Source: Chloranthus sessilifolius
Lineage: Eukaryota > Streptophyta > Magnoliopsida > Chloranthales > Chloranthaceae
DNA: 64,000 nt
Direction of reading: 5' to 3'
NCBI GenBank assembly: GCA_021018995.1
Contig: CM037587.1
Span: 4,838,866 to 4,902,865, forward strand
In this document: positions 1,850 through 63,454 of the stretch, in pieces
Position numbering within the stretch: position 1 is the first letter of the stretch
How the letters are laid out: each line of letters begins with the position of its first letter
Program-made: the position numbers and the translations under genes
The notes under the pieces: generated by a model
Database searches by the model: none
What the model was told of the DNA's origin: nothing
Seen by the model: the letters and a program-made list of their open reading frames with translations, nothing else

Positions 1850-4376
1850 TGTGACAGCCCGGATTTCGGCACCCCGAAACCCGCGCCATCAGCACGATCA
1901 TCTTGACCGTGCCCCTCAACTATGCACGGAACACTGGTATATCAAGCATAAAATAAATAAGAACAACTTGCGGAATTTAAATCTACATAGAAATACTTCT
2001 CAAAAGACAGTTCTACCCTCATGCCTCTGCATGAAGGGAGAACCGATCCGAACCATCGATGATAACCATCATCATGGATGGTTCGCCCAAAAGAATACTC
2101 TGATATCCATAGACACAAGGTTTAATCAAAAACCAGGCTTGACATACCAAGCCGTACAATCTCCAACTAAAACCCCTCAAAGTCGCACTGAGAGTCCTCT
2201 GAAGAAGTCCTCCGAGGTGGCTCTAACTCTCGCCGGCCGCAAGGTCCGACTCACCGGGTCGGCGTCTCAAGCCTCGGCATTGCTAGTAGTGGACTGCGAC
2301 GATAGTCTATAGGGTGAGCTACATCCTAGCTCAATAATAGGCGAACACAATTGAACATATAAAATATAACTCACATGTATTCTATGATATGCATGCATGA
2401 TGTGTCTATGCATTTATTGATAAAAAACAGTTAAAAACACTTCAATTACTGATAGATTACTCATGTCTTTTAGTTAATCATGAATGATGCTGAGAAGGCC
2501 TAAAGCAAAACTTAAACTTCAACTTAAATAATCCCGAGCAATATAGCATCGAGCCCGACGAGATACCCTTCATCGTCATCTATATATAGCGGTTTTAAAT
2601 GTATTCCACAGAATACTAATAGTACCCAAGCCCCTTTCCTCGGGATTGGTGGCGGGTTTCACATCTCATCAACACCCACAGGGTGTACTTACTATGTCTC
2701 GGATAAGCCTCATGACCGCCTACGGTTTCACCGTATCGGTCACGGATATCCTGCCGTGTCAGTCGTGGATATCCCGCCACGTCGGTGGGGTAACCTATCA
2801 AACCTCAAATAACAAAAATATCGGTGCCTTACATATAGTTATTCACCGTGTAAGTGTGCTATCTTATATCAGTTAGGCCCTATCAAGCATGATTCAATCC
2901 TTGGATACATCCCTGGGATGTATCCATTCACTACATCACACGATGCTCTTTTCTCTTACTTCTTCATCCCCGGGATGGCTCATTTGTTTACTCTTATGAA
3001 TATCACACACACACTTTTCACAATTCTTTAAGCAGTAAAAATATTTGAATGGAAATTTATATCACTACATACATGCTCTTGCAAAATAAGGTACATGTTC
3101 AAGGTGTTCCCTACCTTAGGTCTCTATCGATTTAATGCATCAAGGTCCCACTCGGCTCCTTGTGCCCACTTCCATACGTATCACCTATGATACCATTAAA
3201 CACACTCGAAACGTCACAAAAGATGTAATGAATAAGTCTCAAGACCCCCCTAGAGTCTTGAAGTAAGAATCAAAAGTCCACAAAGTTTACTACAATGATT
3301 AATCGATTCCAAAATCGATTAATCGAAGTAAATATCGATTAATCGAAAACAATTTCGATTAATCAAATTCTCCTTTCGCAAAGTCCATTCTCGTTCGAAT
3401 AATGAAGTTTTCATTCGATTAATCAATCCAATTTCGATTAATCGAAATTCTTCTTTTCAAGAAGCAAATTCACTGCTCCGATTAATCGAATCCAATTTCG
3501 ATTAATCGAAATCCTTCTTTTCGCAAGGTAGACCCACTATTCGAACAGTTGAGTTTCACAAGTTGATTAATCGATTCTAAATCGATTAATCGAAAACCAA
3601 AAATCGATTAATCGAAATCCCATTTCGATTAGTCGATTTTTCCTCAAGTCATTTCCTTTAACCCCTGGGGTCCACTGGAGGTTCTCAGTCGATTAATCGA
3701 TTCCCAAATCGATTAATCGAAATCCAAAGTCGATTAATCGAAATCGGGGTCCTCCGACCCTTCAACTTCCTGGCCAATTTCGATTAATCGAAACCCAATT
3801 TCGATTAATCGAATTGTCGATTCACCCTTTCGATTTCCATACTTTTCTTCTATTTTTCTAAGCCATTATCCTATGATTTAACCCACATTTCTTTGCAACT
3901 TAACCCCTATAATCTATGCATCTTATTTACAAAAATTTTACCTTGAATAGCTCTCAAGTTGATTTCAAATCTAGGGTTGGAAGGCTAGGGTTCCAGCTTT
4001 GGTTTCTAACGGATTCCTTGCGTCAAATCCGGCCTCTTTAATGCTTGAATCCTTCTTCCAATCACCCACAATAACTCCTCTCTTACTCCTCTCTCTTTCT
4101 CTCTCTTCTTTACTTCTCTCAACCACCAAAACATGAAAGTTAGGGTTTTCAACCCTTTTTATCTTATCTCTTTTCTCGGTGTGGAGCACATACACACTCA
4201 TCAGTGTATGCCACTCTACACACTCCTCTATCTCTCCACTCTTCTACATTGGTTCACACATCACATTCGCTCATCTCACCATAAGTTTATCAATAAACTA
4301 TCTCATGGTCAAACCTAGGACCAATCGGGCACGGATCCCAAGGTCCTCGTTTGACGTGCTTTTTCGGGTTATTACA
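1850..4376 (-). mobile_element. Solo LTR of a Tekay/Del-like Ty3-gypsy element, TSD TTTTT
   Basis: On the plus strand it runs from TGTGACAGCCC to GGGTTATTACA and is bounded by TTTTT on both sides (1845-1849 and 4377-4381), the 5-bp duplication of integrase-mediated insertion. Read on the minus strand it starts TGTAATAACCCG. It belongs to the same LTR family as 59111-61452: both contain CGGATATCCCGCCACGTCGG in a duplicated context (2766 and 60000). No internal region is attached, so it is a product of LTR-LTR recombination. The LTR holds a palindrome array at 3296-3815. Short ORFs inside are not credible genes. Confidence 0.85.
3296..3815. repeat. Palindrome array, word TCGATTAATCGA
   Basis: About 17 copies of the perfect 12-base palindrome TCGATTAATCGA, or one-base variants (for example TCGATTAGTCGA near 3625), are spread irregularly over 520 bp. 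Most are followed by AATC or AACC. Spacing is not constant, so this is not a simple tandem satellite. The copies cluster in pairs about 18-20 bp apart. The array lies roughly 560-1080 bp from the 5' end of the minus-strand LTR that contains it. Confidence 0.9.
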
Positions 4377-4514
4377 TTTTTAAACATACATAAAATTTTC
4401 ATAAATTCACGAATAATTCGTAGAACCTTAAAATACAAGTATTATTCACAATTTTTTTAAATATTCGGAGATTTTGGTGACTATGTCTCAATGTTCCCCT
4501 TTGATTCTCAAGGG

Positions 4515-5090
4515 TAAATAGGGTTGCAAATGGTCTGGCTGGTTTGTGTTAAGGGTTAACCCTACGTATTTAAGAGTTAGTCTACAATGGGTCTCCACCC
4601 ATTATGGGTGAACACGACAATCCACACATTTGTGTGGATTTGTGACATGCACATACTTCTAATGCATGAAAGTTGGTGTACGTCATAAGTCATATAGATA
4701 TGTGGACTGCTTTACAACTCATGATGGGTGGACATTCACTGTACACTAACTGATTTTTATTTAAACCCTCAATCCAAACCCAATTCGACTTGTTTATTAA
4801 AACCCCAACCTAAACTCAACCTGACTCAATTAGCAAAAACTTGAGTTCGGTCGGGTTGGCTTGGGCATAATAGGGTAAAATATGAGAGAGGGAGTGAGGT
4901 CAAGTCGGATTAGGCTGGGCTCGGGTCAAGAAACCTCAATCCGAACCCGCCCTTTTAATAAACGGGTCTAAATTTTCATCCTGACCCGACCAAATGGGTC
5001 AAAAATCTGAGCCCAAACCCGACCTTTGGCGGGTCAGGTCACTTCGCTGTTGAGTTGACCCAACCCGTTTGAAACCCTAACAACATATCA
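4515..5090. mobile_element. GGGTCGGGT-type dispersed repeat
   Basis: The segment starts near TAGGGTTGCAAATGG and ends near CCCGTTTGAAACCCTAA, an approximate terminal inversion. Its interior is rich in degenerate ACCCGACC and GGGTCGGGTT words on both strands. It is non-coding and resembles 10015-10305 and 26871-27215. No reliable duplication is visible. The superfamily is inferred only. Confidence 0.5.
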
Positions 5091-10593: not shown

Positions 10594-10866
10594 GATTGGT
10601 GGGGACCGAAACTGAAATTTTAAACCAACATTTCGGCCGAAATCTTTAAATCCATACCATTTATACCGAAAATTTGGGATTTCGTTTCGGTTTCAGTGGG
10701 GACCAAAACCAAAATATTTCGATCAAAATTTAGATTCAACATAGTATAAAGAAATTAAACACATTGGCAACATAATAGAAAAACACTTATATTAATTTAT
10801 GAGAATATTTTTAAAAGGTAGATTTATTAATACCCATGGAAGCTTGGAGGACACCCACGCTAAGCT

Positions 10867-11374
10867 CCATTGAATGCTTTAAATCAGATGATGGAGATTG
10901 TTTTGGCCCTAATCTTCCACACAACAGATCTTGAGAACATGGATGTAAGATACCACTATCTTAGACGGTGAGTTTTTTTATTTCAGGTGGCTTATATATA
11001 AAAAATGGCCCTAAAATCACCTTTGAGCATGATGTGTGCCATGTGATTTTAGGGCCATTTTTTTGGAATCTTTGACACTTAGAATAAAAAATTAACTGTA
11101 TGATAATAGCTCATGGTCTCAAGCAATGATCAAAATTTCAATTTCGGGCATGACCAAAACCGAAAATTTGGACCTAAATTTTGGCCGAAAACCAATAATT
11201 TGGCCGAAATTTTGAGTTCCATACAAAATATGACCGAAATTTCGATCCAAATTATCGTTTAAGTGAGGACCGAAACCGATAATTTGGACCGAAATTTCGG
11301 TCATTTCGGCCAAAATTTTGATCCGTGGTCTCAAGATCCATTGAGTGGAATATTGGGGATAAAGCTGTCAATGG
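10867..11374. mobile_element. Foldback MITE, family 1, with nested hAT MITE (copy A)
   Basis: The arms CTTGAGAACATGG and TCATGGTCTCAAG pair, as do ATGGCCCTAAAATCAC and GTGATTTTAGGGCCAT around a 24-base centre. Outer arms CCATTGAATGCTTTA and AAAGCTGTCAATGG also pair once the nested element at 11124-11327 is ignored. The left half matches the 5141-5548 element. Confidence 0.7.
11124..11327. mobile_element. hAT-type MITE nested in copy A, TSD GTCTCAAG
   Basis: The 204-bp element begins CAATGATCAAAATTTC and ends AAAATTTTGATCCGTG. It is bounded by the perfect 8-bp duplication GTCTCAAG (11116-11123 and 11328-11335). The interior is made of ACCGAAATTTCGG words. It lies within the right arm of the foldback element. 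The equivalent insertion is at 16852-17055. Confidence 0.9.
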
Positions 11375-11599
11375 TTTTTGTAGGTGTTAATAAAGCTATA
11401 CTTTTCTAAACCCTCCTCCCTTTAAAGTGTGATTCATGTAGGGAGAACCTGGTTAGCGAGTGGCAGATACAATGCACTCCCTAGTTTTTAGATAAAGGAC
11501 ATTTCAATCATATTAATAAAAAATAGACCATTTTATTTATTATATTTGACTATTTTGACGGGGAAGATTGATCCATGCACAACGTTGGTGTGCAAACGG

Positions 11600-11601
<2 letters not shown>

Positions 11602-11668
<67 letters not shown>
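11602..11668. repeat. (TA)n microsatellite, 67 bp
   Basis: This is an uninterrupted TA dinucleotide tract. The same site in copy B (17334-17353) is only about 20 bp, a clear length difference between the duplicates. Confidence 0.95.
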
Positions 11669-11671
<3 letters not shown>

Positions 11672-11734
11672 AGCCGGTTAAGTCCTCCAATGGAGGACGG
11701 TGACCATCCTCCAAGATATATATGGAGCTTCACG

Positions 11735-11738
<4 letters not shown>

Positions 11739-11783
<45 letters not shown>
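11739..11783. repeat. (GA)n microsatellite, 45 bp
   Basis: This is an uninterrupted GA tract in copy A. In copy B the corresponding tract is split by a CACTA MITE at 17467-17560. Confidence 0.95.
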
Positions 11784-11786
<3 letters not shown>

Positions 11787-12527
11787 AATTAGACTTGAGA
11801 GAAAAAAGGGGGTGCTTAATTGCTTTATATATTTACAAAAATAAAGAAAGTTTTTTAAAGGAAAAAGCAAGGATGCGTTTGGCTTAGTTCCCCTCCAAAA
11901 AGCAGGTCTTTGGCTCTGGTGGGGAGTAGTTTTAAGTGCAGCTTGTTCAGTTGTTCTTAAGTGAAGTCCAAAGTGTGCTAGCATCTATTTCCTTCTGCAC
12001 AAATCTGAAAAGCTCTCGAGCCAGTGGGCTCATCACAGGGAAGACCCCATCGACAAATCCGGATCAATATTTCCATCCCCGCCCCCTAAGAGAACCACCT
12101 ATGTATAGATGATGATTTAAACAAAAATCAGCAATGTTGCAGCTAGATACTGACAGAGAGTTATTACTTATTATATAAAATATAGCCGATAACACCATAA
12201 TGGTTAAGCCTAATGGATATGCACAGGTGTGCAACCAAACAATCCAAAAGATATAAATAATGCTCTCTTCGGAGCACTCAAAAAATTATGAAATTATAAT
12301 AAATGGTCGTCAATCCAACATGAGAAAAATGACTTTCTATTGATCATGAAGCTAAGCCCAATGATCAAATAAGCTAGCCAACTCGGTTCATCTTTTGCTG
12401 ACCCAACACAAAAAATTTCGAATTTTTTACCTAAGCCTTAAAATTCACATTGGAAACACATGTAGGTGAGACACCTTTTATACCCATTATCAAATGTGAT
12501 GCAACACACACACACACACAAATATGG

Positions 12528-16334: not shown

Positions 16335-16851
16335 GATTGGTGGGGACCGAAACGGAAATTTCGGCCGAAATCTTTAAATCCATACCTTTAATATAAAAAA
16401 TTTGGGATTTCGTTTCGGTTTTGGTGGGGGCCGAAACCGAAACATTTCGATCATAATTTAGGTTCAACATAGTATAAAGAAATTAAACACATTGGCAACA
16501 TAGTAGAAAAACAGTTATATTAATTTATGAGAATATTTTTAAAAGGTAGATTTATTAACACCCACGGAAGCTTGGAGGACACCCACGCTAAGCTCCATTG
16601 AATGCTTTGAATCAGATGATGGAGATTGTTTTGACCCTAATCTTCCACACAACAGATCTTGAGAACATGGATGTATGATACTACTATCTTAGACGGTGAG
16701 TTTTTTTATTTTAGGTGGCTTATATATAAAAAAGGGCCCTAAAATCACCTTTGAGCATGATGTGTGCCATGTGATTTTAGGGCCACTTTTTTGGAGTCTT
16801 TGACACTTAGAATAAAAAATTGACCGTATGATAATAGCTCATGGTCTCAAG

Positions 16852-17055
16852 CAAGGATCAAAATTTCGGTTTCGGGCATGACTGAAACCGAAAATTTGGA
16901 CCAAAATTTCGGCCGAAAACAGATAATTTAGCCGAAATTTTGAGTTCCATACAAAATATGACCGAAATTTCGATCCAAATTATCGTTTCAGTGAGGACCG
17001 AAACCGATAATTTGGACCGAAATTTCGGTCATTTCGGCCAAAATTTTGATCCGTG
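16852..17055. mobile_element. hAT-type MITE nested in copy B, TSD GTCTCAAG
   Basis: It has the same 204-bp length and position as the copy-A element, starting CAAGGATCAAAATTTCGG and ending AAAATTTTGATCCGTG. GTCTCAAG lies on both sides (16844-16851 and 17056-17063). In this copy the left terminus better matches the consensus CAAGGATC than copy A (CAATGATC). Confidence 0.9.
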
Positions 17056-17419
17056 GTCTCAAGATCCATTGAGTGAAATATTGGGGATAAAGCTGTCAAT
17101 GGTTTTTATAGGTGTTAATAAAGCTATACTTTTCTAAACCCTCCTCCCTTTAAAGTGTGATTCATGTAGGGAGAACCTGGTTAGCGAGTGGCAGATACAA
17201 TGCACTCCCTAATTTTAATTTAGATAAAGGATATTTCAATCATATTAATAAAAAATAGACCATTTTATTCATTAGATTTGACTATTTTGATGGAGGAAGA
17301 TTGATCCATGCACAACGTTTGTGTGCAAATGGTAATATATATATATATATATAGGGAGCCGGTTAAGTCCTCCAATGGAGGACGGTGACCATCCTCCAAG
17401 ATACATATGGAGCTCCACG

Positions 17420-17466
<47 letters not shown>

Positions 17467-17467
<1 letters not shown>

Positions 17468-17558
17468 ACTACAAAAAATAAGACTATCTGCTATTAGTCC
17501 TGCCGCTACCAAAAATTGCCTTAACAGCAAGTGCCCCTAAAACACCTTATTTTTGTAG

Positions 17559-17560
<2 letters not shown>
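17467..17560. mobile_element. CACTA-type MITE inserted in a GA microsatellite, TSD GAG
   Basis: The 94-bp element begins CACTACAAAAAATAAGAC and ends CCTTATTTTTGTAGTG, flanked by GAG (17464-17466 and 17561-17563). GA tracts lie on both sides (17422-17466 and 17561-17602). The empty site is preserved in copy A at 11739-11783, which shows that the insertion followed the duplication. The interior is more diverged than in the element at 921-1103. Confidence 0.9.
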
Positions 17561-17605
<45 letters not shown>

Positions 17606-17765
17606 GAGAGGAAAAAAGGGGTGCTTAATTGCTTTATATATTTACAAAAATAAAGTTTTTTAAAGGAAAAAGTAAGGCTGCGTTTGGCTTAGTTCCTCTC
17701 CAAAAAGCAGGTCTTTGGCTCTGCTGGGGAGTAGTTTTAAGTGCAGCTTGTTCAGTTGTTCTTAA

Positions 17766-41110: not shown

Positions 41111-41159
41111 TCGTGATACTTTTCCTGATGAACAACTTTTGGGAATAGAAGTGGCAACA

Positions 41160-44019: not shown

Positions 44020-44265
44020 TATGATTGCTTATAATCTAATCTTATTGATTTTGCCCTAGATGTGATTGCTTATAATCTAGTCCTATTTATTTTGCCCTAA
44101 ATGTGATTGCTTATAATCTAATCTTATTGATTTTTCCCTAGATGTGATTGCTTATATTCTAGTCCTATTTATTTTGCCCTAAATGTGATTGCTTATAGTC
44201 TAATTTTATTGATTTTGCCCTAGATGTGATTGCTTGTAATTTAGTCATAATTATTTTCCTAATTG
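44020..44265 (+). repeat. Higher-order tandem repeat, 41-bp units in 82-bp dimers
   Basis: Six units of TGTGATTGCTTATAATCTA plus a tail alternate between two versions: units 1, 3 and 5 have AATCTTATTGATTTTGCC and end TAGA; units 2, 4 and 6 have AGTCCTATTTATTTTGCC and end TAAA in 2 and 4. The alternation shows that the dimer, not the monomer, was amplified. Confidence 0.9.
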
Positions 44266-45008
44266 TTAATGTTATTATTTTTTTATACTTTGTTATTTTA
44301 ACAATTAAAAATAACACAAATGATTAATACTCTATTCCATCATCCTCTAGTAAAAGACATTTTATGGACATTATAAAATCGTGAATCGAGTTCAAACTAA
44401 AATCTACATAACCATGATCTAAACCTATAATTTCTTTAAAATTTTTATAATATTTTATATTTTCTAGAAACTAAGCATTTCTATATATATATAGACCCAT
44501 GACCTATTTTAAACATATTTCCAAGTCCAGCGTTTACAAAAGGTCCCATGTAGTATCTAAGACTTTGTTTTAAGGAAAGAGATATTACATAGATTATTTT
44601 AACATAAGACTCTATACAATAAAAATCAAGAAGTGACTACATTTATATTAGCAAGCAACAATAAATCTTGCGGTTACTTATCAAAACAGAAAAATATATA
44701 CATATATAATTATTTCCCAAGGCTATAATTTTCAAACGATATAAATCATGTAGGCGTGATCAAATTTTAATAAGTAATATTATTATTAATATCATGAGGT
44801 CTCAATTGAGTATTGACTCTAAAACTAGAGAGCCTACCACGGGATCACCTTATAATGCCCAACGATGGAGTTTGAATTTTTTCCCATGGGAGGTAATATA
44901 TATATATATATGGTCGATAGAGAGGATGAGTTAGCACTAAATAAGCAACTTAAGCGTTAGATAACTTCATACTTAGGTTGCCACGTGGGATTCTGATGTT
45001 GGAGGTCT

Positions 45009-45135
45009 GTGACCCATCTTATGTTGGACCGTGACCCATCTGACGTGGATCGTGACCCATCTGATGTTGGACTTTGACCCATTCGATGTTGGACTTTGGC
45101 CCATCTGATTTAGATCAGCCCATCTGATTTCATTT
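45009..45135 (+). repeat. Tandem repeat, about 22-bp unit, six copies
   Basis: Units GTGACCCATCTGATGTTGGA and variants (TTGACCCATTCGATG, TTGGCCCATCTGATT) follow each other inside the solo LTR. Confidence 0.8.
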
Positions 45136-48100
45136 CAAAGGATGGTATTAAATTAATTAAAATATCTTTTACAATATATTATGATATATTTAAAGAGAAA
45201 GTGATTTTAGATAGTAATATAAAATTAATAAATATTATATACTTATATTTTATTATCATATAAAATAAATGTACTTGGTTACTACCTTATTTTAATATTA
45301 TAAAATTATCTTATAAGATATATGAGTAGTAGTATCCCATGTCAGAGCCCAATTAGTTTCCTTTTTATCGATGGATTGATCTATTAAAATCGACCAATTA
45401 ATCATGAGCCAAACGACAACTTACACCTTATTAAATCTGATCTATCGATTTTCATTTTTTTCAATCGATCGATTCTCATCGAATAGACGACTGATTCACC
45501 AAAATTTCACTTTTACGACCAAAAAAAATTTAGTGCACTTGCACTTTGATCGATGGTCGTGATGTACTTAACTTTAAAAATAATAATATTTAATTTGGAC
45601 ATTTAATAATGATAAATAATAATATATAAAGTCTCGCTTTTATCGCTTCAACGACCACCGATAACATAAAGTGTTAGAACTTGATGTCTTTATGAAACCG
45701 AACTCGACCTACGATTATCAAAATCATACTTATAACCATATTCTATAATTATATTGGTGTGGTATGTAAATAAATATAAACATAAATATAACCAAAATCT
45801 AAGTGTAAACCATTACGTATGTGTGATACTTTTGTATTTATAATTTAATCAATTTATACGAGTTAGGATATGTTAGATCATGAGTCGAGAGTGTATGAGA
45901 TCATGCCTATGCTTGGGCGTGGTGATTATTTGAGATGGTATCGGGCGAAATGCAATCAGATTCACATGCCTTACAACTCATGGTGGAATGGGACCCATGA
46001 CGAGTCGGGTGAGTGTGAATTGGTGTAACCTCGTGATACGGTGGCATATACGGCCCGATCACCCGAGTTCAAATATGATAGTATGAGTTATGAGTTAAGT
46101 TATGAGGTTCGACCATAGGCTTTGCACGTGGTGAAGTTTCTTCTACGATCACGTGAAACTTCGGAATATTGGCGTCCGTATGCGGATGCAACGCCTCTAT
46201 GATAGTATGGGCATGTCACAAAGTACATCCATACTACTACGGAACCTTTTCCTTGGGAAGCGTGAATTAGGAAAGTTGCCCCACTATAGTCTAGGATGAA
46301 GTATAAGAGTATGATAAGATATGAGTATGAGATAAGATAAGCTATAATCTGATGCGATAATAAGGCATCATTTGTATAGGCCGACAAAAGATAAAGAACT
46401 TAAGTCTCTGTCGTCGTGCGTTCCTTGCGTAGCCACCGTAAGAACAACGTCTTCAAAAGCGGATCTGGGAGAGATTATGAGTAGGAGTGTGTTATGAGTG
46501 AGTTTGGCCATTATGTCTCCCCATTGGTGGATGGTGGAGTATGAGTATGACACGAGGCGTTATGATATGGTGGTATGATACTATGTTGACCCTCCATGGT
46601 AGCTCGGCGACTGCACGCAGTCGTTTAGGATTTCACGAGTATGTTAGTTACGCTCATGCGATATGACGTATGTGCAAGAATAATAATAAGACATGGTAGG
46701 ATATGTTATGAGATATGGTAAAGATGCGTTGGATATGAGTTAATACAGATCATAGTCTTGCATTTATGATATGAGCTTTATAATATGCATGTGATTTTGT
46801 CATTCTTTTGCTATCTGCTTTGACATATTATATTTATCACTCACAATATGCACCCACAATGCACACGAGTAGTATGGGTGGATTGGTGGTGTATCCCATC
46901 GAGTTCGTGGTGAGTAAACTCATCCCACGATAATCTAACGATTGCGGTGATTACGCTAGTGGAGTGACGTCGGTCATCCGGATCCGGTGACGCGATTTCA
47001 TTGATCCATGAGTGTTGAGTACCAGGAGGGCTACGGTGCTGATTTCGATCCGAGTGCTGGATATTGATCGCTGCAGACTTGGTAGTAGATTGGATCCCTA
47101 TTATTATCATTAATTTTATGATTTCCTTTATCGGATTTGTCTCCAACTTTGAATTATGTTTTATTGGTAGATTTGTTGATTCTATCGCATTTATTCATTA
47201 TTTATGGCTACTTTTATTTTCACCTTTATGTGTTGGCTTTCACGGATTTCGTGGAACCATTATTGCGCGAGAACTCTGATTAGGTGTATGTCCGCTTAGC
47301 ATATCCGAGATATGTGCGGGTCATAACTCGAAATTCTAGGCCCTCGGGATGGGGTAGAATTTCGGGTCGTGACAGTTATTCTTTCGCAATATCCACGAAG
47401 CCGATCGCACTCTAGCGTACATCGATCTGGCTCACCTTCATGCGCTTGCCACGCCGCTGCCAGTCGATGTTGCAGTGTGCATCATTAGGCTTTACTATCA
47501 GAACATGGAGTGGGTGTCGGCATCACGCTCCCCAACCCATCATGATCATTTCCAAATCAAGATCGATAGCTGGATTCATTGGGTCCACACCCAAGAACTG
47601 GCAGAAGCATTTGATTTTCCACGAAGCTGACCCTTTGAGCATCCGATTGGGGCGGCATTAGATGCGGTTCAAGAGGCCATAATCGCATATATGGCTGGGG
47701 GAATATTTGGTTCTGGGCAATCGACGACTCGGTCGGCGTTGCCTAGAGAGTTATTGTTATGGGACACTATTGTCATGTCCAACCTCTGCCCGCAGGGTCA
47801 TCCATCAGAGCAGGCGGGCGAAAGGGCGACGGCGTTGTATGTCGTGCATACAAACACCTGAGTTGAGGTCATGGTATTGATGCACAGGGTCATGAACAGA
47901 TGCCACACAGATATTTCTATGCAGTGGCGTAACCAACATTTTGTGCTTTATTTTCCCCATTGCGTATCTGGAATGTCCAATTTATGATGATGAGGCGATT
48001 GGTACAAAGGAATTTTATAGGTATGGGAAGCATCTTTGGAAAAAGCGCATGAACGCTCTCGCCAAGGCAAGGCGGGATTATCAACAACCTTAAGCACCCG

Positions 48101-48374: not shown

Positions 48375-49026
48375 GTAGTTGAGATTAGATTTTTTTTTTC
48401 TTAGAGGTGTTTTGCTATTGTTCTTTTTATTTTCCTTGATGTAATTCCCATTTTAAAAAATATTCAAATTAAAATTTAGTGTTGCTATTCCAATTCCCTT
48501 AATATTTTAGAGTTTTTTGTGAAGATTTGCTAGTATATAATCGATCGATCAAAGAGATGGTCGATCAATTGATTAAATAGGACTTACTGAGTATTTTGTC
48601 ATAGGTACAAATCGATCGATCGAATTGTCACCCTCGATCGATCGATTATGCATTGTGAATTTTGGTAATTTCTTTCGATTTGGTCACAGACCAAATCGAT
48701 CCATTGAAGTGTCATGCTCGATCGAATGATTATGAACTGTTCGATTTTCAGAAAGTTGGCAACTTTCCACGTTGATAAATCGATCGGTCAACTAGATTGA
48801 TTTTGTCTAACTACACAATTTTCTAGATCCCGAAATTGAATTTTTTTTTCTTTTATTTCCATTTTTATTAATTCTTCTTTTAAATCCTTTCTCTTCTTTT
48901 TAATAGCCCATAGACTTTAGGTTTTCTTAAATCAATTCACTTTTTCTCTTTATTCCATTTCTTTTTCCCCCTAACTCCGAATTAATGGTCGGCATATGAT
49001 TCTACACCCGCGCGGCAAAGAAGCGA
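48375..49026. repeat. Palindrome array after the third ORF, word TCGATCGATCGA
   Basis: The array occupies about 48538-48800: ATCGATCGATCAAAG, AATCGATCGATCGAATTG, CCTCGATCGATCGATTATG, GCTCGATCGAATG and AAATCGATCGGTC. The rest is a T-rich spacer. The word is the same as in the array at 42600-43045, so the third ORF is bracketed by two arrays of one word. Confidence 0.8.
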
Positions 49027-52738: not shown

Positions 52739-54356
52739 TGTAGACACCCAAATTGGGCCCAAGGCTCGATCGAAACACATTTTGAGAGAAGTGTATTTTC
52801 GAGCTTTTGATGGCATATATGGAACTCTTAGGAATCACTCCAAACTTTTATGAATCACCCTAGATCACTTAGGAACTTACCCCGAACCTTTAGAAACCAA
52901 TCCTGACCCTTAGAACCCATCTCAAACCCAAAACCTAACCTTCCAGGGAAATGGATGAAGAATGGTGCATTAAGACTAGCTGAGTTCTTCTACTAATATC
53001 AAATCATATACTATTGGAAAGAGGACTTCTCCAGCTTTCCAACGAGCCAATAATCGCCTCAATCGAAGTTATATATCAAAAGTTATGACCATTTAAAAAT
53101 CGAGCAATTTTGGAGAAATTTTTGCCTGGCGCAACTTATAGTTACAACAGGCTTTTTTTCCCCCAGAATTTGCTTGGCGCAACTTATAGTTACAACAGGC
53201 TTTTTGCCCCTAGAAATGGCCTGGCACAACTAATAGTTGTGCCAGATATAAATAGGTCCCCCTACTCCTCGCGGGCTTGCAGCCTCCAGGAAATCTCACC
53301 CACAATTTTACTATACATTTGCCTGACGCAACCAATAGTTGCGCCAAGCATATGAACAGTAACTATTGGATTTTGTCTCAAAAATTGAGATTAGGGTTTG
53401 ACTTATTGACCATCTTGATCTTTGGGATATATTTTGCTAGTTTTGTTGCACCCTTTTAGTGCCTATTTACAACCCTCAGGTGATTTGAAACACCAACCAA
53501 TCATCCACCATTAGAACTACCTTCACACATTTCCAAGCTCTCAAAATCCTAGAAAACCTTAGATTTGAGATTATCTAATTACTAACCCCATTTAGTACTT
53601 AAGTGGTCTCCTAATCCACCCATTTCCTATAAATAGAGCCCCCCTCCCCTTGGTTTAAGGGTTGAGAATTTCTATCTAAGAGAGAAAGAGCTTAAAGTGA
53701 AAAGATCTTTCTTCCTTTGGTGCACACCTCCCATACAAAAACCAGAATTCAAAAACCTCTTCCTACCCTTGCCTTTCATGGAAAGCCACTAGGTTAGGTG
53801 TGTGTGATCCCCTAGCCTCCCTTCTCTACCTCTTAGCTTCAAGCCTTAGGAGTTAGAACCCCATTCTATACCATACAAGTTTTCAAAAGCTCATCAAAGC
53901 AAGCCACGCAAGGCTCCTCTACGGTGCTACAAGGGTCCGAGGGCTCCGGCTCTCTCCTTTCTTCTCCTATCTCTTTTCGGCATTCCCCTACCATCTCATT
54001 TGTATCGTTACGTTGCCAAATTTTTGGTAGGAACGGAGGGGCACAAATAGGGTTTAAGGCCCATTTGGGTAAGAGGGAGCCACTTTCTTTCCTTTTACTT
54101 CATTTTATTTTTGGCCATTAGTAGAGACCGCATTAAGCGGGTTGATCGGGTGCCTAACACCTTTCCGATCGATAATTGAAGCCCCTACCCAAGAGCCTTT
54201 GGTGTGAACCGGATTCAGAGTCATATTTGTTGCACTTCGGTGCTTATAAAAATGATATAGGTATTTCGGGACACCAAAAGCTCCGGGTGGCAACTCTATA
54301 TTTTTTGCAAGCGAGCGCATTGTCGCGACGGGACCGTCACGGATCCCACTGTTGCA
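52739..54356 (+). mobile_element. TGTAGACACCC-family 3' LTR, 1618 bp
   Basis: It begins TGTAGACACCCAAATTGGG after a polypurine tract and ends GGATCCCACTGTTGCA. A TATA box CTATAAATAG lies at 53627-53636, followed by a leader (GGGTTGAGAATTTC). The palindrome array at 53124-53347 lies between the start and the TATA box. The 5' part of a sister LTR is at 35256-35967 (minus). The LTR is followed by a partial copy of itself. Confidence 0.8.
53124..53347. repeat. Palindrome array, word GGCGCAACTAATAGTTG(CGCC)
   Basis: Units CCTGGCGCAACTTATAGTTA, TTGGCGCAACTTATAGTTA, TGGCACAACTAATAGTTGTG and TGACGCAACCAATAGTTGCG recur with spacers of 40-100 bp. Each centres on an inverted GCAACTA/TAGTTGC. One further unit (TGGCGCAACTAATAGTTGTG) begins the truncated copy at 54360. 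Confidence 0.85.
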
Positions 54357-55402
54357 CAATTTGCCTGGCGCAACTAATAGTTGTGTCAGGCATATGAATA
54401 GTAACTATGGTTTTTTACCTTAAAATTCGTGATTGGGGTTTGACTTGTTGACCACCTGGACCTTTGGGGTATATTTTGATAGTTCTGTTGCACCCATTCA
54501 CTACCTATTTGCAACCCATTAAGTGGCTTAAGGCCTTACCCTATCATCCACCATTAGAGGACCTTCTGACACATTTTAAGGCTCTAAAAACCCTATGAAA
54601 CCTTAGATGTTAGATTACCTAATCCCTAATCTTGATTAGCACCTAAACACCCTCCAAATCCACCCATTTTCTATAAATAGAGCCCCCCACCATTTGATTT
54701 AGGGGTTGAGAATTTTTACCTAAGAGAGAAAAAGCTTAAAGTGAGAAATCTTTCTCCCTTTGGTGCACCATTACTCATACAAATTCTAGAATTCTAAAAC
54801 CTCATTTCTAGTCTTACCTTTCATAAAAAGCCTCTAGTTTAGGTGTGTGATATCATTTACCTTCCCTCTCTACCTCTTAGCTAGCAAGCCTTAGAGGTTA
54901 AGACCCCTTTTACCATCATACAAGCCTTCAAAAGCTTATCAAACCGAGCCAACGCAAGGCTCCTCAACGGTGCAACAAGAGCCCGAGATCTTCAGCTCTC
55001 CCCTCTATTCCTCTACCTTCTCGGTCATTCCTCCATCCTCCCATTTGTGCCATTATGCCGTCGAATTTTCGGTAGGAATGGAGGCGCACAAATAGGATTT
55101 AAGAACCATTTGGGTAAGAGGAAGCCATTTTATTTTCTTTTACATTATTTTTATTTTAGCCTTTAGTAGAGACTGCGTTAAGCGAGTTGATTGGGTGCCT
55201 AACACCTTCCCAATCGATAACCGAAGCCCCTTCCCAAGAACTTTTGGTGTGGACCGGATTCAGAGTTATATTTGTGGCACTTTGGTGCTTATAAAAATGA
55301 TATAGGTTTTTCGTGACACCAAAAGCTCCGGGTGGCAACTCTATATTTTTTTGCAAGCGATTGTATCGCCACGACGGGATCGTCACAAATCCCACGGTTG
55401 CA
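54357..55402 (+). mobile_element. 5'-truncated tandem copy of the same LTR
   Basis: The sequence restarts inside the palindrome array and then follows 53320-54356 to its end, CCCACGGTTGCA at 55402. It includes a second TATA box (CTATAAATAG, 54671-54680) and the phrase CCGGGTGGCAACTCTATA. It adjoins the broken integrase of the Tekay-like element at 55403. Confidence 0.75.
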
Positions 55403-55902
55403 CACTCGGCGACGTCTCTCTTTAAGCCTCTCCTCCAGAAGCTCTTCTTCAAATCCTAGTACATCTTGGTACTGCCAGGATTAATAACATAAATAGATTT
55501 GTGAGCTTCTTATAAAATGGTGTCCCGAAGCTCAGTACTAGTTGGTACGCATACCCGATCTCGAAATAGAAAGGTCCCGTCTGTCCTAATAGAGAAATTT
55601 GTCTTGCTTCCACTAATTGCATCCTGTCTGATCGCCATAAGCTCATCATCCATCATCTGAAGCTTCTGTATATTCTCAAAGAGTGTAGGACGAATCACAA
55701 GGATCGCCATCAGAGCTCCCGAACCTTTCACGTCAAACCTCATGCTGTATAAAGCTATATCTTCAAGTAATCGCCATCTATGCCCTCTAGTGATGAGGTG
55801 TGACAATAGAGTAGAAGAATTCTGACTCAATACATCTGCAATGACATTTAATTTTCTTGGGTGATACTGGATAGAGCAATCATAGTCCTTCAGGAACTCC
55901 AT
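55403..55902 (-). pseudogene. Tekay/Del-like RNase H end and integrase start
   Basis: On the minus strand EFLKDYDCSIQYHPRKLNVI ends RNase H. Next comes TNFSIRTDGTFLFRDRVCVP, then after a frame break INPGSTKMY and DLKKSFWRRGLKRDVAEC, which start the integrase zinc domain. The coding sequence stops abruptly at 55403 where the LTR end is joined. The DDE core and chromodomain are missing. Confidence 0.8.
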
Positions 55903-55908
55903 CCATGG

Positions 55909-56900
55909 TCACTGCCTCATATTCAAGTCCTTCTGGGTGAATAGGTACTTAAGGCTCTTATGATTGGTGAATATATCAAGCATTTCACTGTAGAGGTAAT
56001 GTCTCCAAATCTTGAGAGCAAAGATGACTGCTGCTAATTCAATGTCATGCGTCGGATAGTTCTTTTCATGGTCCTTTAGTTGCCTTAAACCGTAAGCAAT
56101 GACCCGTTCATTCTGATTAAGCACATAGCCCAATTCCCTGTATGAAGCATCGCTATACACTGTGAAACCTCTACTGCCTGAAGGTATAGCAAGTATTGGC
56201 GTTATAGTCAACCACTTCTTGAGCTCTTGAAAACTCTGCTCACACTGCTCTATCAAATCAAACTGAGCGTTCTTTTTCATAAGTTGTGTAAGCGGACGTA
56301 ATATCTTAGAGAAACCCTCAACAAATCTCCTGTAGTATCCCGCCAGACCAAGGAAACTATAGACCTCTACAGCCGTCTTCGGCTGTTCCCAGTTCACAAT
56401 CGACTCAATCTTTGCTGGATCAATCGTGATGCTAGTCTCAGAGACAACGTGGACTAAGAAATTGACCTGATCAAACCAAAACTCGTAGTTGCTAAGTTTG
56501 GCGTATAGCTGGTGGTCTTTGAGGAGCCACTCGTAAATGCTACACATGTTCCTCTCTTGTTTTCGAATAGATGAGGATGTCATCTATGAAAACCACTACT
56601 TATTTATCAAGGTGTGGTTTGAATACCCGGTTCATCAAGTCCATGAATGATGCTGGCACGTTCGTTAGCCCAAAAGGCATCACTAGAAACTCATAATGAC
56701 CATACCTCGTGCGGAACGCAGTCTTGGAAATGTCTTCCACTTTAATCTTTAGCTGATGGTAGCCTGACCTCAAATCGATCTTTGGAAAGAATCTTGCGCC
56801 TTGCAAAGCCGCATTGACCCATCCTTCTTCTTCATAAATAATACCGGTGCTCCCCAAGGAGAAACACTTTGTCTGATGAAGCCTTTATCTAACAGCTCCT
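55909..56900 (-). pseudogene. Tekay/Del-like reverse transcriptase and RNase H, decayed
   Basis: RT shows [34 protein letters not shown] and [15 protein letters not shown], then a stop (at about 56600) just before the catalytic [12 protein letters not shown]. Upstream, [18 protein letters not shown] jumps straight to [11 protein letters not shown] in another frame: about 30 residues containing IDYRELNK-type sequence are deleted. RNase H keeps YSDAS and [19 protein letters not shown] but has TNHKSLKY where the family has TDHKSLKY, so a catalytic Asp is lost. Confidence 0.85.
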
Positions 56901-57276
56901 AAACCTGTTCCTTTAGTTCTTTTAACTCAACATGCGCCATTCGGTATGAAGCCTTTGACAATAGTTCGGTACCCGACGCTAACTCGATCGCGAACTTGAT
57001 CTCTCAATCAGGTGGTAATCTAGGTAAATCCCTAGGGAAAATATCAGGATATTCACATGCAACCGTGATAAGAGTAATGTCCTTCTCCTCTTTATGATCT
57101 TGTATGTAAGTAAGATATTCGCAGCACCCATTCCTCATCATACGCTCTACTCAGATAGCTGAAATGAATTATGCGATGCTGGATTTGACTTCATAAAATT
57201 GGAAGGATTTTCTCCTTGGACGTCGGAAAGTCACAACCTTTCGAAGACAGTCCACACTCGCATGATATGTAGATAA

Positions 57277-57552
57277 CTAATCCATTCCGAGGATTACATC
57301 AAACCCTTCTATACTCAATATTATCATATTAGTTATCGTCCCGTGATCCTCAATCATCATGAAAACTGATTGGCATACCGTATCGGTGCTCACTGAGCTT
57401 CCCGTAGGAACTGATACAACCAATATGAAATCAAGGAGCTTGAGAATGATGCCCAAATTCTCAGAGAATAGAGGAGTGACAAAAGAGTGAGTAGACTCGG
57501 GGTCTATCAATACTTGTGCTTCTGTTTTACTTATGCTGCCCTGACGACGCAT
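57277..57552 (-). pseudogene. Tekay/Del-like protease, inactive active site
   Basis: The segment VLIDPESTHSFVTP corresponds to the family's VLIDPGSTHSF active site, with the Gly replaced by Glu, which should abolish aspartic protease activity. It ends EGFDVILGMD, the normal C-terminal motif of the domain. 56901-57276 is the degenerate linker to RT (with DIFPRDLPRLPP). Confidence 0.8.
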
Positions 57553-57587
57553 GACTAGGGTACCTTTTATTAATACAATAGACTTAA

Positions 57588-58999
57588 TTAATTATATGAA
57601 ATGAATGTCGTGTTCATGCTTGTCATAATGAACAATTTATAACTCAAATCAATAGAAACTAATACTAGAATTAATATTTGAACTGTAATGATACCTTGGA
57701 TCACGTCATTCGAAGTTTGGGCATCCTGCGTAGTCACGGCATAGGCTCGACCTTGAACAGTAATTCGAGAAGATCTCTGTGTAGAAGTCGAAGTGGTCCT
57801 TCCCTTGTCCTCCTCAGGAGAATCCTTGACCATATGGCCGAGCTTTCCACACCGGAAGCACGCTCCAGTGTTCCTTCTGTAGTCTTCAGTCTTGTGTGGT
57901 TTCTCACACCTTGTACACAAAGGGATCGGAGTAAAAGATGAAGCACGTGAGGATCCTTGAGCTATAGAAGCCCCACTCGCAGTAGAGCCTGATGGCCGGA
58001 AGGATTGCACAGGCGAAGACAATACTAGTCTCTGATATGATGTCAGACCAGAAGAAGCTGTAGGTCTCAAGTACGCCGGTTGAATAGGATATCTCAGTGG
58101 CCTTGTGAACTTGGGTCTCTTGTTTGCCTGCTCATAGGCACTTGTTTGACTCTGACCTGCTCTCTCCTTATTCTGCTGATCCCTCCGCTTGTACATCCTG
58201 TCGATGTCCTCCTCAACTATGAGGGCTTTACTAATCACCTCTGCGTAAGTCTCAAGCTCAAAAGCCGGGATCCTCTCCAGAATGTTTGTCCTTAAGCCCA
58301 TCTAAATTTTTTTGGCCCTCATCGACTCTTTGGCCACATGCTGAGGTGCGAATCGAGATAGTCTATCGAACTCAGCCTCGTATTCTCACACTGTCATCTT
58401 GTTCTGCTCCAGCTTTATAAAATGGACTTCCCACTAGTGCCATACGACCTAGGAAAATATTTATCATTAAATGTTTCTACAAATTCTGCCCAGGTCCATG
58501 GCATATTGGGGTTTTCCAGCTCTCTAATCCTTGATACTGACTTCCACCAGCGGCTAGCCTCCCCATCCAACTTGAAGGTTGCCCAGTGCACCTTCTCAAC
58601 TTCGGTGCATTATAGCACATTGAATATTTTCTCCATTTCGTTCAGCCATCCCTCTACCAATATCGGATCAATCTGGCTCACAAAATTAGGAGGACGCATC
58701 CTCCAAAATTCTATAAACCCGGAGGGTTGATGCTTGGCTGCAATCAGTTCTACTTCCTGAGTAATAGCAATAGTCTACTGAGCCATGGATATTGTCTGTT
58801 GAGCCATATTGGTGACCAATGCCTCCAACACTTGCTCAACTCATCCATCGGTACCTCTTCCAACTCCAACCGGAATCGCATTAGAACCGGAAGCAAAAAC
58901 AACTCCCCTAGATGTACCAACACCTTCGGGAACGTCAGTTAATGGAACCGTCTTAGGTCCGTCTCTTCCTCTTCCTCTACTTTTGAACTGTGAGGCCAT
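57588..58999 (-). pseudogene. Tekay/Del-like gag, decayed
   Basis: The likely start MASQFKSRGRGRDG is at 58999. Capsid motifs FWRMRPPNF, WWKSV and WAEFVETFNDKYFP are recognisable between about 58440 and 58720, followed by stops and frame changes. From 58301 to 57588 one frame is open: ERIPAFELETYAEVISKAL, then a nucleocapsid with CTRCEK and CFRCGKLGHMVKDS, where the last zinc-binding Cys is Ser. No intact capsid can be made. Confidence 0.85.
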
Positions 59000-59096: not shown

Positions 59097-59110
59097 ACTC
59101 TGATGCCAAC
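59097..59110 (-). promoter_or_regulatory. Primer-binding site, tRNA-iMet type
   Basis: The minus-strand sequence GTTGGCATCAGAGT follows the LTR end directly. It differs by two bases from the usual TTGGTATCAGAGC site. This fixes the element's orientation and marks 59111-61452 as its 5' LTR. Confidence 0.8.
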
Positions 59111-61452
59111 TGTGACGACCTGACTTTCCCATATTTGAAATACCGGGAAGGCCGGCTCGCCAACCTATCGATAAATCGATAAGCCAGACAGATCAGTCAT
59201 ATACCAGAGTACAAAGGAGCTCCATTTCTATGATCATAACAATACGAACATAATTCTAAGTCTGAACAATGATATGTAAAAGAGATCTCTCATAAATAAG
59301 TCATATCTAAAAAAGAAACTAAGAAGAGCCACCGATGTTGGTCAATCTAACACATAAACAATGGTTCCTAATAATAGTTCCTCAAAATGATATAGGGAAT
59401 TACCAAACATGGCCTCGGGCCCATAATTCAAACAATATCTAACTCAAAATCACAAAAGGAATATACCCAGAACACAAGTCTAAACTAAGGGAAAGAACTC
59501 GTCAGGAGGGATTTTTGGCTCCTTTGGCTCGTAATCCAGATCATTCTCGTAACGAGCCTGACTCTACACCTATGATGTATAGTCGGGGTGAGCTAACATC
59601 TAAGCTCAGCAGAAGAAACTCAATTTATCACATTTTACGAGAGGTTTTCAAGGACTGAAATCGAATCAAATATGATTTTCAAAACAAGTATTCCTTTCCT
59701 AAGTTACAATTCTAAATGAGCAAAGGTAGTGTAATGAATGTGAAATCAAGTAAATCCAATGTTCATAGGGTTTCGAAATCTGATTTATGTATGCTTCTTT
59801 GTTAATTGACTTAAACCTTAACTTAAGGTTCTTCTCATGTTACTATATCAAGAGAGTAGGAATAAAACTGATGGGAATTCCTAACTAACCATCGTCATTC
59901 AACGAATCCATTTTCAGGTAAAATGCAACAAGCCCCTGTGTTATGAGGGTACTTGTGCCATACAGATACTCAATCAAATATGTTCAAAGTCAAACTCACG
60001 GATATCCCGCCACGTCGGTCACGGATATCCCGCTGTGTCGGTTGGGATTCCTTCATGAGAACCATAAATCAAATGCAAATTCTAATACATAATTAAAATG
60101 CAGATTCAAATTCATAATTCAGATGCAGATTTCTGTTCATATATCGGATGCGGGGTTTCACAATTTAGGGTTCACATTCATATCCAAGTGTATTCGAAAT
60201 TCACAGTTCATAGTTCATGCTAATATATTCATGACAGATTTAGATCAAATTTGGAGTCCATGCTATGATAGGAAACAAATGCTGATGTATTCAGAAGACA
60301 AAAACATACCCTTTTGGAAAATGTAAATAAGATTGAGGTTCCCCTACCTTACACTTGGATTTGATCAAAGCTAATCCAAAGGTCCTTACCAACGGCTTTT
60401 CCACACCTAACCTATATTGAATTAACACTTCATGAGTGTTAATGGTGTCAAAAATAACAGACAAAAGTTTTCCCATAACTTTTCCGAAGAAAAATTAAAA
60501 AGCCAGAACCAGGGCAAAATCGAACGTTCGATTCTAAATTTGAACGCTCGATTTCTTATTCGAACGTTCGATTTTTAATTCGAACATTCGATTTCTTCGG
60601 AAATCAAACTTGTAAGAGAAGAGCCAAAATCGATCGTTCGATTCCATTTTCGAACGTTCGAATTTGGATTCGAATGTTCGAATTCTTCAAATTTCTGTTG
60701 TTTTCATTTTTCCTTCACAGCTTAATTTAATCCAACTCTAAACTGTTTTCTATTCTAAATTCACACACATAATCTAGCTTAGTTTAAGTTATAAAAACTA
60801 ACAAGATGAATTTAAGAGCCTACCTCTTGAGGTTGACTTCCGCAGTTTTTGATGATCCAATTACTTAGCACCGGATTGAATCTAATGAAACCTCAAGCCG
60901 ACAGACCCCCAGCTAAGCTCCATATTGGCATATACCTTCAGGCACGTGGATTTGCAGATCACCCGTCCATCATGAACGGTTCACACAAAATCAGACAACA
61001 CTCTCTTAATACCTTTATTCCTATCAGTGACAGATTACAAGGCTTTTCTACGGTCAAGATCGCGAGGTGATCAAAATTTTAAGCAATCAAAGCGAGGAAA
61101 GATATGAAGTTAGCATAAGCTTTAAGGCTTGGTTCTCATGAGAGGAAGAGAAGTGAAACTTCCTCTTCATTCTTCTCTCTTTATAAGGTAAAAGTAAGTT
61201 TAAAAATATCATGATATTTCTTCCGAATTCTATCCACTTGAATTTGGCTTAGGTTCGGTGTTGAGCATGCACACACAAGTCAGTGTACGAGTCACTGGTC
61301 AAGGGCCTACACTAAGTCTAAATCAAATTTCCTTTGACCTATAACATCCTCATAAGTTTATTTGTTCATACCTTTCAAAGTTGTTGTACGACATTTTTGG
61401 GCATGCTTACCGAGGCGAACGTGTTCGGGCTCAAAATTCTCGAGATATTACA
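59111..61452 (-). mobile_element. 5' LTR of the Tekay/Del-like element, 2342 bp
   Basis: On the plus strand it runs from TGTGACGACCTG to CTCGAGATATTACA; on the minus strand it starts TGTAATATCTCG and ends before the PBS. It belongs to the family of the solo LTR at 1850-4376. A minus-strand TATA-like CCTTATAAAG lies at about 61179-61188. The palindrome array at 60520-60682 is downstream of it and so would be transcribed. The tandem CGGATATCCCGC words are at 60000-60040. Confidence 0.85.
60520..60682. repeat. Palindrome array, word TCGAACGTTCGA
   Basis: Seven copies occur: CGAACGTTCG three times, with variants GAACGCTCG, CGAACATTCG, CGATCGTTCG and CGAATGTTCG. Most are followed by ATTT or ATTC. 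The position in the LTR corresponds to the TCGATTAATCGA array of the solo LTR at 1850-4376. Confidence 0.9.
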
Positions 61453-61954
61453 GTCTGCATTCATTCGATACTTTTTGTAACCATTTAACTGATAGTGTAT
61501 TTGTTGCCTTGGATTTGATGTAGATCCTGTAATTTTTTTCCTTTTAAACTTCAACGATAAATTTCATGTGTAGTGGTGATTGATTTGTTTTATATTGTTT
61601 ATTATCAATATCATCGCTAGGCAAATCTTGGATACCAGAATTGCAAACACGATAAAACATCTCCATCGCCTGATTCAAATGAGTCAATGCCTTCTACAAT
61701 TCATGGCCCATATCGGCATAGAGGCATATAAGGGCCATGACCATTGTCTAAGCCAGGTAGGTAACTTTGGTTTTCCCTTCAAGAAGTGTAAATTGACTTA
61801 TACTGATGATGATTTTTTTTTTTTGATTACTTGGGTATCCGGGGCTCTTAGAGCACCCGCTTAATCCCAGGGGCCCATGCGCACCCGAAATTCAGCACAT
61901 GCCGAGTCAGCACAGGATATAAATCCCTAGGGTGGCTTCAAAAGGAGAGGGGAT
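61453..61954 (+). other. Short non-repeat island with one candidate exon
   Basis: This is the only stretch between the two LTRs. Bases 61621-61756 are bounded by a pyrimidine-poor acceptor ending CATCGCTAG and a consensus donor CAG|GTAGGT. The exon reads ILDTRIANTIKHLHRLIQMS, then QCLLQFMAHIGIEAYKGHDH and CLSQ, a regular amphipathic helix-like pattern. I do not recognise the protein. The end (61830-61950) is a GC-richer stretch of unknown nature. Confidence 0.4.
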
Positions 61955-63454
61955 TGATCGGTTTTAAAGTGTACCCTTGCAAGTGCATAAGTTCGATTGT
62001 AGCACGACGAAATTAAGGGTGTCGAACCCACAGGGAAGCGCAAAATTAGATTAATTTTAAAGAGATTTCAAAGACCCAAGGAAGTACCAAGGGTGAGAGA
62101 TTTCATTGTCAAGATTTACCACTACACAATGCAATAATCAAAAGAACTAAATCAAGCTATGCACGGATGAACTATGATTAAGAAATTAACAATGATGAAA
62201 TGATCAAGGAGTTGCTAACCCTAGATTTATAACTTTTCTACAATCAACCACACAATTTCATGTTAAATCATTATACCATCATTTAACTACAAGAAAAACG
62301 AATCGATGAAAATGAAATTATTGATTCGGCATACCCTATCCGAACACTATGACGCATCCAATCACGGCATGCATCATGCGAAAGGCATAGCGTATCTCAA
62401 ATTCAAAATCACAACCGTAAGAATCAACCGCACGGCATCCTATATCGATCTACAAGATCAATCTAGGTGGAATAATTCGTTTATTGTCGCCGATCACACG
62501 GTCGACGGCTATAAACGAGTATTCGATGATAACACAATGAAGCACACACTAAAAGCCGTACGATTCAATAATTATAACAAGAAATTGTAAGCTTAAAAGT
62601 AAGTTAGTTACTCATCTAGGGGTCGCTTCCTCCTTGAACGAGGGGTTTAGCCGCTCATCCTTGATCCACACGCACAATGTAAATCGAAAGCCATCACAAA
62701 AATTGCTCTTTTATTTATCAACCGCTTGATCTTTTTGGAGAAGATCACAACCTTACACAACTTTTTATCTAAATACAAAACTAAAAATAACAAAGAAAAA
62801 ATTGCTAAAGGTCCTAAGAAAATCTACCGAGCAGAAGTCCCCCAGAACCCTAAACACCCTCTTGTTTAAATAGGGCCCCGGGCTAAAATTATTCCATATC
62901 CGAATCAATAGATTGAATTTTGAATTTTGGTGGCTCATTTCCATTCCCAAAATCAATCTATTGAATTTAAGGAATTCAATCGATTGATTTTCGAAAATCA
63001 ATCTATTGAATTCCAAATTCAATCTATTGATTTTGGAAATCAATCTATTGAATTTTGGAAATCAATCTATTGATTTTGGAAATCAATCTATTGATTTTTG
63101 GAAATCAATCTATTGATTTTGGAAATCAATCTATTGATTTTTGGGCAACTTTTTAAACTCAATCGATTGAGTTTCAAATCTCAATCGATTGAAATGGGCA
63201 TGTGACATATTTAACTCTTGAAACTGTGGCTAGACCAATCAGTCTTTTTCACGGATTTCAGTGCTTCCGCTGGCTCCATGGTCCAAAGTTCATATAGTCC
63301 CTTAATTTTATTCACTTAAGCTCTTTCAACATCCCACGGTCCGTAACACCTGAAACCACTAAAACTATATAACAGCCGTTAGAATGCCTTCATCGGATAG
63401 CTAAATGTTAGTATTTAGGGTGCGAAATATAGTCATATTTCGACACAGATCACA
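61955..63454 (-). mobile_element. Athila-like LTR, 1500 bp
   Basis: On the minus strand it starts TGTGATCTGTGTCGAAATAT at 63454 directly after a polypurine-like GTAGGTTTCGGGG and ends TTTTAAAACCGATCA at 61955. It is therefore the 3' LTR of an element lying to the right, outside the window. It matches the 5' LTR fragment at 35968-36689. A TATA-like CCTATTTAAAC (complement of about 62864-62874) follows the palindrome array of 62896-63200. Confidence 0.8.
62896..63200. repeat. Palindrome array, word TCAATCTATTGA / TCAATCGATTGA
   Basis: About fourteen copies occur. The core block repeats GGAAATCAATCTATTGATTT with a period near 21-22 bp at 63040-63140; flanking copies read CAATCGATTGA. The array sits about 25-330 bp upstream of the minus-strand TATA-like box. 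Confidence 0.9.

Follow-up and report, generated by a model that had tools for sequence, protein, structure and literature searches.

A 64,000-nt stretch of Chloranthus sessilifolius DNA (CM037587.1; hereafter the window, to which all array counts refer) carries nine stretches in which a short palindromic word recurs in degenerate copies, and in the seven arrays built of short words the centres of neighbouring palindromes lie mostly 19-23 bp apart. The window is plant DNA with a G+C content of 0.377 and many nested retrotransposons. The arrays lie in long terminal repeats (LTRs) or in linkers behind an integrase, and in one pair of related LTRs the word has been replaced in register. The arrays are real as a sequence feature. 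The reading we prefer, with roughly even confidence, is that they are cis-regulatory modules of LTR retrotransposons in which paired binding sites for protein dimers would control nearby promoters.

Copies of eight words were found in all nine stretches for which an initial annotation of this DNA had proposed such arrays, close to where it had placed them, with the reservation that 35518-35612 holds two copies only. Array words and mismatch limits were set by hand in this analysis. On the minus strand, A1 (3295-3816) comprises 18 sites of TCGATTAATCGA, A2 (28392-28491) five sites of GTGGTTAACCAC 22 bp apart at ≤4 mismatches (at ≤3 mismatches, four sites at distances of 22, 44 and 22 bp), A3 (34695-35030) 11 sites of GACCGGTC at ≤2 mismatches, A8 (60520-60681) seven sites of TCGAACGTTCGA with spacings of 20, 20, 20, 50, 20 and 20 bp, and A9 (62905-63192) 12 sites of the TCAATCKATTGA type. 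The commonest form in A9, TCAATCTATTGA (8 of the 12 sites), had been taken for a self-complementary word; it is not itself palindromic and stands beside three exact copies of TCAATCGATTGA. The plus-strand arrays A5 (42602-43042, 11 sites) and A5b (48541-48791, seven sites) have the word TCGATCGATCGA in common. Two further arrays consist of 23-bp palindromes, namely two copies of ATGCGTGCATATTATGCACGCAT 48 bp apart in A4 (35526-35596, minus strand) and four near TGGCGCAACTAATAGTTGCGCCA spaced 48, 47 and 102 bp in A6 (53127-53346, plus strand). A clear array was present in seven of the eight LTRs judged to have an array region, a biased rate since the LTRs were mostly found around arrays.

Perfect palindromes are in excess in the window. 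With dinucleotide repeats excluded, we counted 59 of at least 12 bp and 166 of at least 10 bp, against means of 21-27 and 82-95, respectively, in Markov models of order 1-3. Perfect palindromes also occupy 15 of the 273 positions of complex 10-mers that have at least six near-copies within 500 bp, compared with 142 of all 60,225 eligible positions. In the seven stretches with words of 8-12 bp, there are 23-39 sites per kb inside the array and 0.2-1.7 per kb elsewhere in the window. The words are largely array-specific, as had been proposed, but they are not all unrelated: TCGATTAATCGA, TCGATCGATCGA and TCGAACGTTCGA have TCGA arms in common; TCGANNNNTCGA, common to three words, has 23 of its 25 window occurrences inside four arrays (Markov mean 1.35); and TCGATCGATCGA and TCAATCGATTGA each match parts of the other's array at two mismatches.

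The common spacing was not among the features initially described. Centre-to-centre distances of 19-23 bp made up 43 of the 64 neighbour distances in the seven short-word arrays (A1, 12/17; A2, counted at ≤4 mismatches, 4/4; A3, 5/10; A5, 5/10; A5b, 3/6; A8, 5/6; and A9, 9/11), against a null sum of ~10, and the mean spacing per array was 20.0-22.0 bp. A count made independently of the words yielded 88 similar near-palindrome pairs ≤70 bp apart, against a Markov total mean of 2.3, with 29 pairs at 19-23 bp, 20 at 40-45 bp, 23 at 60-66 bp and 2 at 12-18 bp; A3 was not picked up by this count. Outside the arrays and named repeats of the window the 19-23 bp peak was absent (7 of 48 looser pairs).

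Several observations weigh against taking this spacing as a binding geometry. The 19-23 bp range was picked after the site distances had been seen; we therefore took a range of 19-22 bp from A1 alone and tested it on the other six arrays, where it held 30 of 47 distances against a null of 5.9. A1, A8 and A9 supply 25 of the 29 word-free pairs at 19-23 bp, and the two arrays with 23-bp words, A4 and A6, are spaced at 47-48 bp. Helical phasing (10.5 bp) of the longer distances was rejected (21 distances, Rayleigh p ~0.5). Of the 20 tandem rows without palindromes, 5 likewise have periods of 19-23 bp (5 of 17 once overlapping rows are merged); tandem arrays were sorted into palindromic and non-palindromic by reading of the tandem-repeat list. 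The palindrome arrays exceeded this background (7/7 in each case; p = 0.0009 with the first background, p = 0.002 in the second test), and with the two 23-bp-word arrays counted as misses against the 5/17 background the p values were 0.025 (7/9) and 0.043 (6/8), so that the excess is modest. Given the unphased long distances, the tandem-repeat background and the 47-48 bp arrays, a paired geometry of about two helical turns is suggestive rather than proven.

The main rival, which we regard as possible if somewhat unlikely, is that the arrays are minisatellites with no binder: slippage or template switching in reverse transcription would favour self-complementary words and units of ~21 bp, and what is seen would be their CpG-deaminating relics. 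The 19-23 bp period found in 5 of 17 non-palindromic tandem arrays and the lack of phasing fit this account, as do the spacers. Copies within the seven arrays are 0.72-0.95 identical in the words and 0.35-0.55 in the spacers of six arrays, with 0.71 in A9, which is an evident tandem duplication. Spacer identity exceeds that of shuffled letters in 7/7 arrays, so plain old duplication has a place among the explanations. Of the 41 deviations from the word in A1, A5, A5b and A8, 25 are CpG transitions of the kind expected where methylated DNA decays. Against a binder-free origin, the words are far more alike than the spacers, palindromes are enriched among locally repeated words, and both arms change in register between related LTRs.

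This last observation comes from one pair of LTRs, at 35205-35967 (minus strand) and from 52742 (plus strand), whose sequences flanking the array (52742-53605 in the second LTR, with the array between) align by blastn at 63.6% identity over 382 columns and 65.9% over 214 columns. The array block between the aligned flanks was left out by blastn. MAFFT places the two A4 palindromes in register with the first and second palindromes of A6; their left arms are GCGTGCATA and GCGCAACTT and their right arms TATGCACGC and TAGTTACAA, indicating that both arms changed in a mirrored way. The fast turnover proposed initially is thus seen in this pair. The LTRs of A1 and A8 (the latter at 59.1-61.5 kb) have a 74-bp match at 74% and nothing more, so that a common array position is weakly supported there.

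In the regulatory reading that we prefer, each palindrome would bind one dimer of a putative DNA-binding protein, and two dimers ~21 bp, or two helical turns, apart would cooperate. The symmetry and constant spacing of the sites fit dimeric binding sites, in agreement with the earlier suggestion of dimeric factors. Copies would multiply through duplication of the ~21-bp unit, and the word would be replaced in concert within a lineage while position and spacing are kept. The likeliest effect would be transcriptional control at the nearby LTR promoter and, in the Athila-like element described below, of a second gene after pol. The arrays may have regulatory and identity roles.

The promoter context is partly in line with this. 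Several arrays had been placed 25-300 bp upstream of a TATA box; in six of the nine stretches we found a TATA-like box on the downstream side, at 2-300 bp. On the minus strand these lie at 28313 (~80 bp from A2), 34495 (200 bp from A3), 35230 (~300 bp from A4) and 62872 (33 bp from A9), and on the plus strand at 43080 (TTATTTAAG, 38 bp from A5) and at 53246 and 53627 (2 and ~280 bp from A6). For A1 there is one doubtful candidate, at 3061, and no clear TATA-like box follows A5b in the stretch tested. A8 does not conform, having no downstream match; the sole pattern match in the 60.5-kb LTR lies upstream of the array. A box at 35737 was dropped for A4 because the A4 LTR has the opposite orientation. 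As the window is AT-rich, single TATA-like boxes prove little.

A second alternative is that the palindromes, once transcribed, fold into hairpins and so act as a source of host small RNAs or help RNA to dimerise, as has been suggested for maize Sireviruses. Folding was computed for three of the nine stretches: predicted folding is strong in A1 (z = -10.4) and A5 (z = -7.0), and a small-RNA excess over palindrome-rich Sirevirus LTR regions is described in the available text of PMC10760457 and PMC5311732. However, A3 (z = -1.1) folds no better than shuffles, 15 of 100 of which fold as well, and gives no support to RNA structure as the common cause. A3 is weakly folded yet regularly spaced, which favours DNA over RNA. 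Hairpins need no fixed centre distance of 19-23 bp, and A5 and the arrays in U3 positions may lie upstream of transcription start sites. We consider an RNA origin quite improbable.

A5 and A5b belong to element A (36831-42460, plus strand), an Athila-like Ty3 element with reverse transcriptase, RNase H and integrase pieces that are broken by stops; Pfam matches were obtained in five of nine pieces, the last one under its cut-off, with the domains in Ty3 order. A5 is situated between the integrase end and the second reading frame, and A5b lies past that frame. The initial annotation had assigned all arrays to LTRs of several families; several LTR types do carry arrays, but these two stretches (42600-43045 and 48538-48800, TCGATCGATCGA) are post-integrase. 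The position of the second reading frame next to two arrays with the same word invites comparison with VANC proteins, whose targets in noncoding transposable element (TE) DNA are tandem motifs that are specific to a family and change fast (PMC5735166, PMC10398659, as far as their available text goes). By analogy, an element-encoded or duplicated host protein might bind the family word and lift silencing of its own family only. The second and third frames of element A, scanned in six pieces, gave no Pfam match at E values up to 5, and thus no DNA-binding domain; moreover, VANC motifs are single-oriented and non-palindromic in the accessible part of PMC5735166, whereas the words of the window are self-complementary. 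Such an anti-silencing code is, in our judgement, very improbable. A broader proposal, which is unlikely, is a shared address system in which unrelated LTR lineages of one genome would use related dimeric proteins, encoded by the element or the host, with the same two-dimer geometry and with family-own words replaced in concert under silencing conflict; each retrotransposon family would then respond to a factor of its own.

The solo Tekay-like LTR at 43287-47373 (TGTAACAACC...GTGACA; target duplication GTTAT) lies inside element A, in its second reading frame. This LTR has a weak and decayed palindrome cluster near 45.4 kb, and at 44016-44278 a 41/82-bp non-palindromic tandem array, an LTR minisatellite free of palindromes.

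The lineage names Athila, Tekay and Sirevirus are given here on LTR, primer binding site (PBS) and polypurine tract (PPT) features that we take to be diagnostic, and not on a tree. Element B, a Tekay-like Ty3 element on the minus strand, has gag-pol pieces at 55513-58301 (protease, reverse transcriptase and RNase H; Pfam matches in four of ten pieces scanned), and its 5' LTR (59110-61452, minus strand) holds A8. The start of element B coincides exactly with the start of a Sirevirus-like LTR-family fragment (61452-61647 and 27766-27959), and it therefore appears to be nested in one. A1 lies in a Tekay-like LTR (2300-4374, minus strand) read from the sequence, with the 5' end TGTAATAACCCG at 4374 and an approximate low end. 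A9 lies in an Athila-like LTR (61956-63450, minus strand; 3' end at 61956, 5' end approximate) that is 65.9% identical to 35971-36690 over 744 columns. Ty3 hosts are thus assigned by Pfam domain order for elements A (A5) and B (A8), and by LTR similarity only for A1 and A9.

A3 is located in an LTR-like unit (33480-35204, minus strand) with the 5' end TGTTAGACC at 35204 and an approximate 3' end. This unit cuts the truncated TGTAGACACC-type LTR of A4 (35205-35967, minus strand). The TGTAGACACC-type LTR of A6 (52742-55404, plus strand; ends placed by reading) contains an internal 1-kb tandem duplication (81%) at 53317-55404, in which a palindrome copy opens each block and each block has its own TATA-like box. 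The Sirevirus-like copia LTR of A2 (27648-28654, minus strand; TGTTAAATCTG...AACA, ends placed by reading) is preceded by GGGGGAG tracts at 28662, 28788 and 29029 and followed by a tRNA-Met-type PBS. Of the four window matches to GGGGGAG, three fall in the 375 bp that precede the start of this LTR, as expected from the multiple PPTs of Sireviruses; no Sirevirus pol was found. Rfam and tRNA scans gave no match.

Also new relative to the initial annotation is a palindrome ladder of GACCGAAATTTCGGTC / TTTCGGCCGAAA at 10594-11325 and 16335-17060. It lies near both ends of the first 730 bp of a repeat pair (10594-11960 and 16335-17765, 90% identical) and shows some distances of 19 and 21 bp. The pair was considered as LTRs and dropped, as reading of the sequence showed no LTR features.

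Relatives were sought in other contigs. In viral contigs, neither reverse transcriptase piece had a relative and the A1 word pair was absent; a scan of the same contigs for two of the Sirevirus words in PMC2829016 matched 6 and 2 stretches. A genome-contig search returned 13 loci. Two of them (L001 and L002), at 65% identity, are plant-like Athila contigs filed under Solirubrobacter sp. CPCC 204708 and Geminicoccus harenae; contamination of these bacterial assemblies is the probable cause. The two contigs hold no similar palindrome pair; as a pair of LTRs was seen in neither, LTRs fall outside this comparison. The remaining 11, at 28-38%, are distant; nine have no palindrome pair, L010 has one and L011 five, AT-rich.

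The initial annotation knew of no described system of this kind, a claim that is contradicted by the palindromic motifs of Sirevirus LTRs published in 2010 (Bousios et al., PMC2829016). According to the available part of that account, 13 Sireviruses each have a palindromic repeated motif, called Sirevirus-specific among the copia elements studied; the motifs are element-specific, lie upstream of the TATA box and, in env-bearing elements, of the env-like gene, and 12 of the 13 words, Tnd-1 being the exception, have a CGG-CCG core. A2, A3, A6 and A9 resemble these motifs in layout, and A5 in its place between integrase and second frame. In contrast, the window has Ty3-type hosts, and most of its words are without the CGG-CCG core. 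A2 itself, with five sites at ≤4 mismatches, falls short of the at least eight copies of Sirevirus clusters, possibly because its LTR is eroded, and GTGGTTAACCAC has no CGG-CCG core; its position ~80 bp upstream of a TATA-like box agrees with the Sirevirus arrangement. By domain order or LTR similarity, the hosts of A1, A5, A8 and A9 are not Ty1/copia Sireviruses. Maize Sireviruses (2016, Genome Res, via the portions available of PMC10760457 and PMC5311732) likewise have palindrome clusters in the regulatory LTR part and fast sequence change, but these are copia elements linked to small RNAs. The accessible text of PMC10760457 also reports no obvious secondary-structure peak in maize Ty3 elements and cites palindromic cis repeats for several other TE families.

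Two further systems are similar in part, as described in the text available. VANC / VANDAL motifs (PMC5735166, PMC10398659) are short, family-specific, dense in noncoding TE DNA and turn over fast by tandem repeat formation, but they belong to DNA transposons and have a single-orientation, non-palindromic form and a known encoded binder. Repeats between pol and the 3' LTR of Retand/Tat elements (PMC11963269) are family-specific, occupy the same region as A5/A5b and accompany accessory open reading frames with possible DNA binding, but no palindromic character is described for them in the part consulted. The available portion of PMC2829016 makes no mention of a common 19-23 bp spacing, and in the literature surveyed, mostly open-access papers and in part judged by their listings, nothing evidently describes arrays of palindromic words in the LTRs of plant Ty3 elements or a 21-bp spacing. 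The arrays of the window represent a broader form of the repeated-motif array known from Sireviruses, and what goes beyond known work is their presence in Tekay-like, Athila-like and TGTAGACACC-type LTRs with a common 19-23 bp spacing. If similar arrays hold in Ty3-type LTRs, they would belong to plant LTR promoters in general, beyond Sireviruses. If the spacing is constant while the words change, a single geometry of binding that serves many specificities is to be expected, and the arrays would offer a way to study how families of retrotransposons turn into regulatory units of their own.

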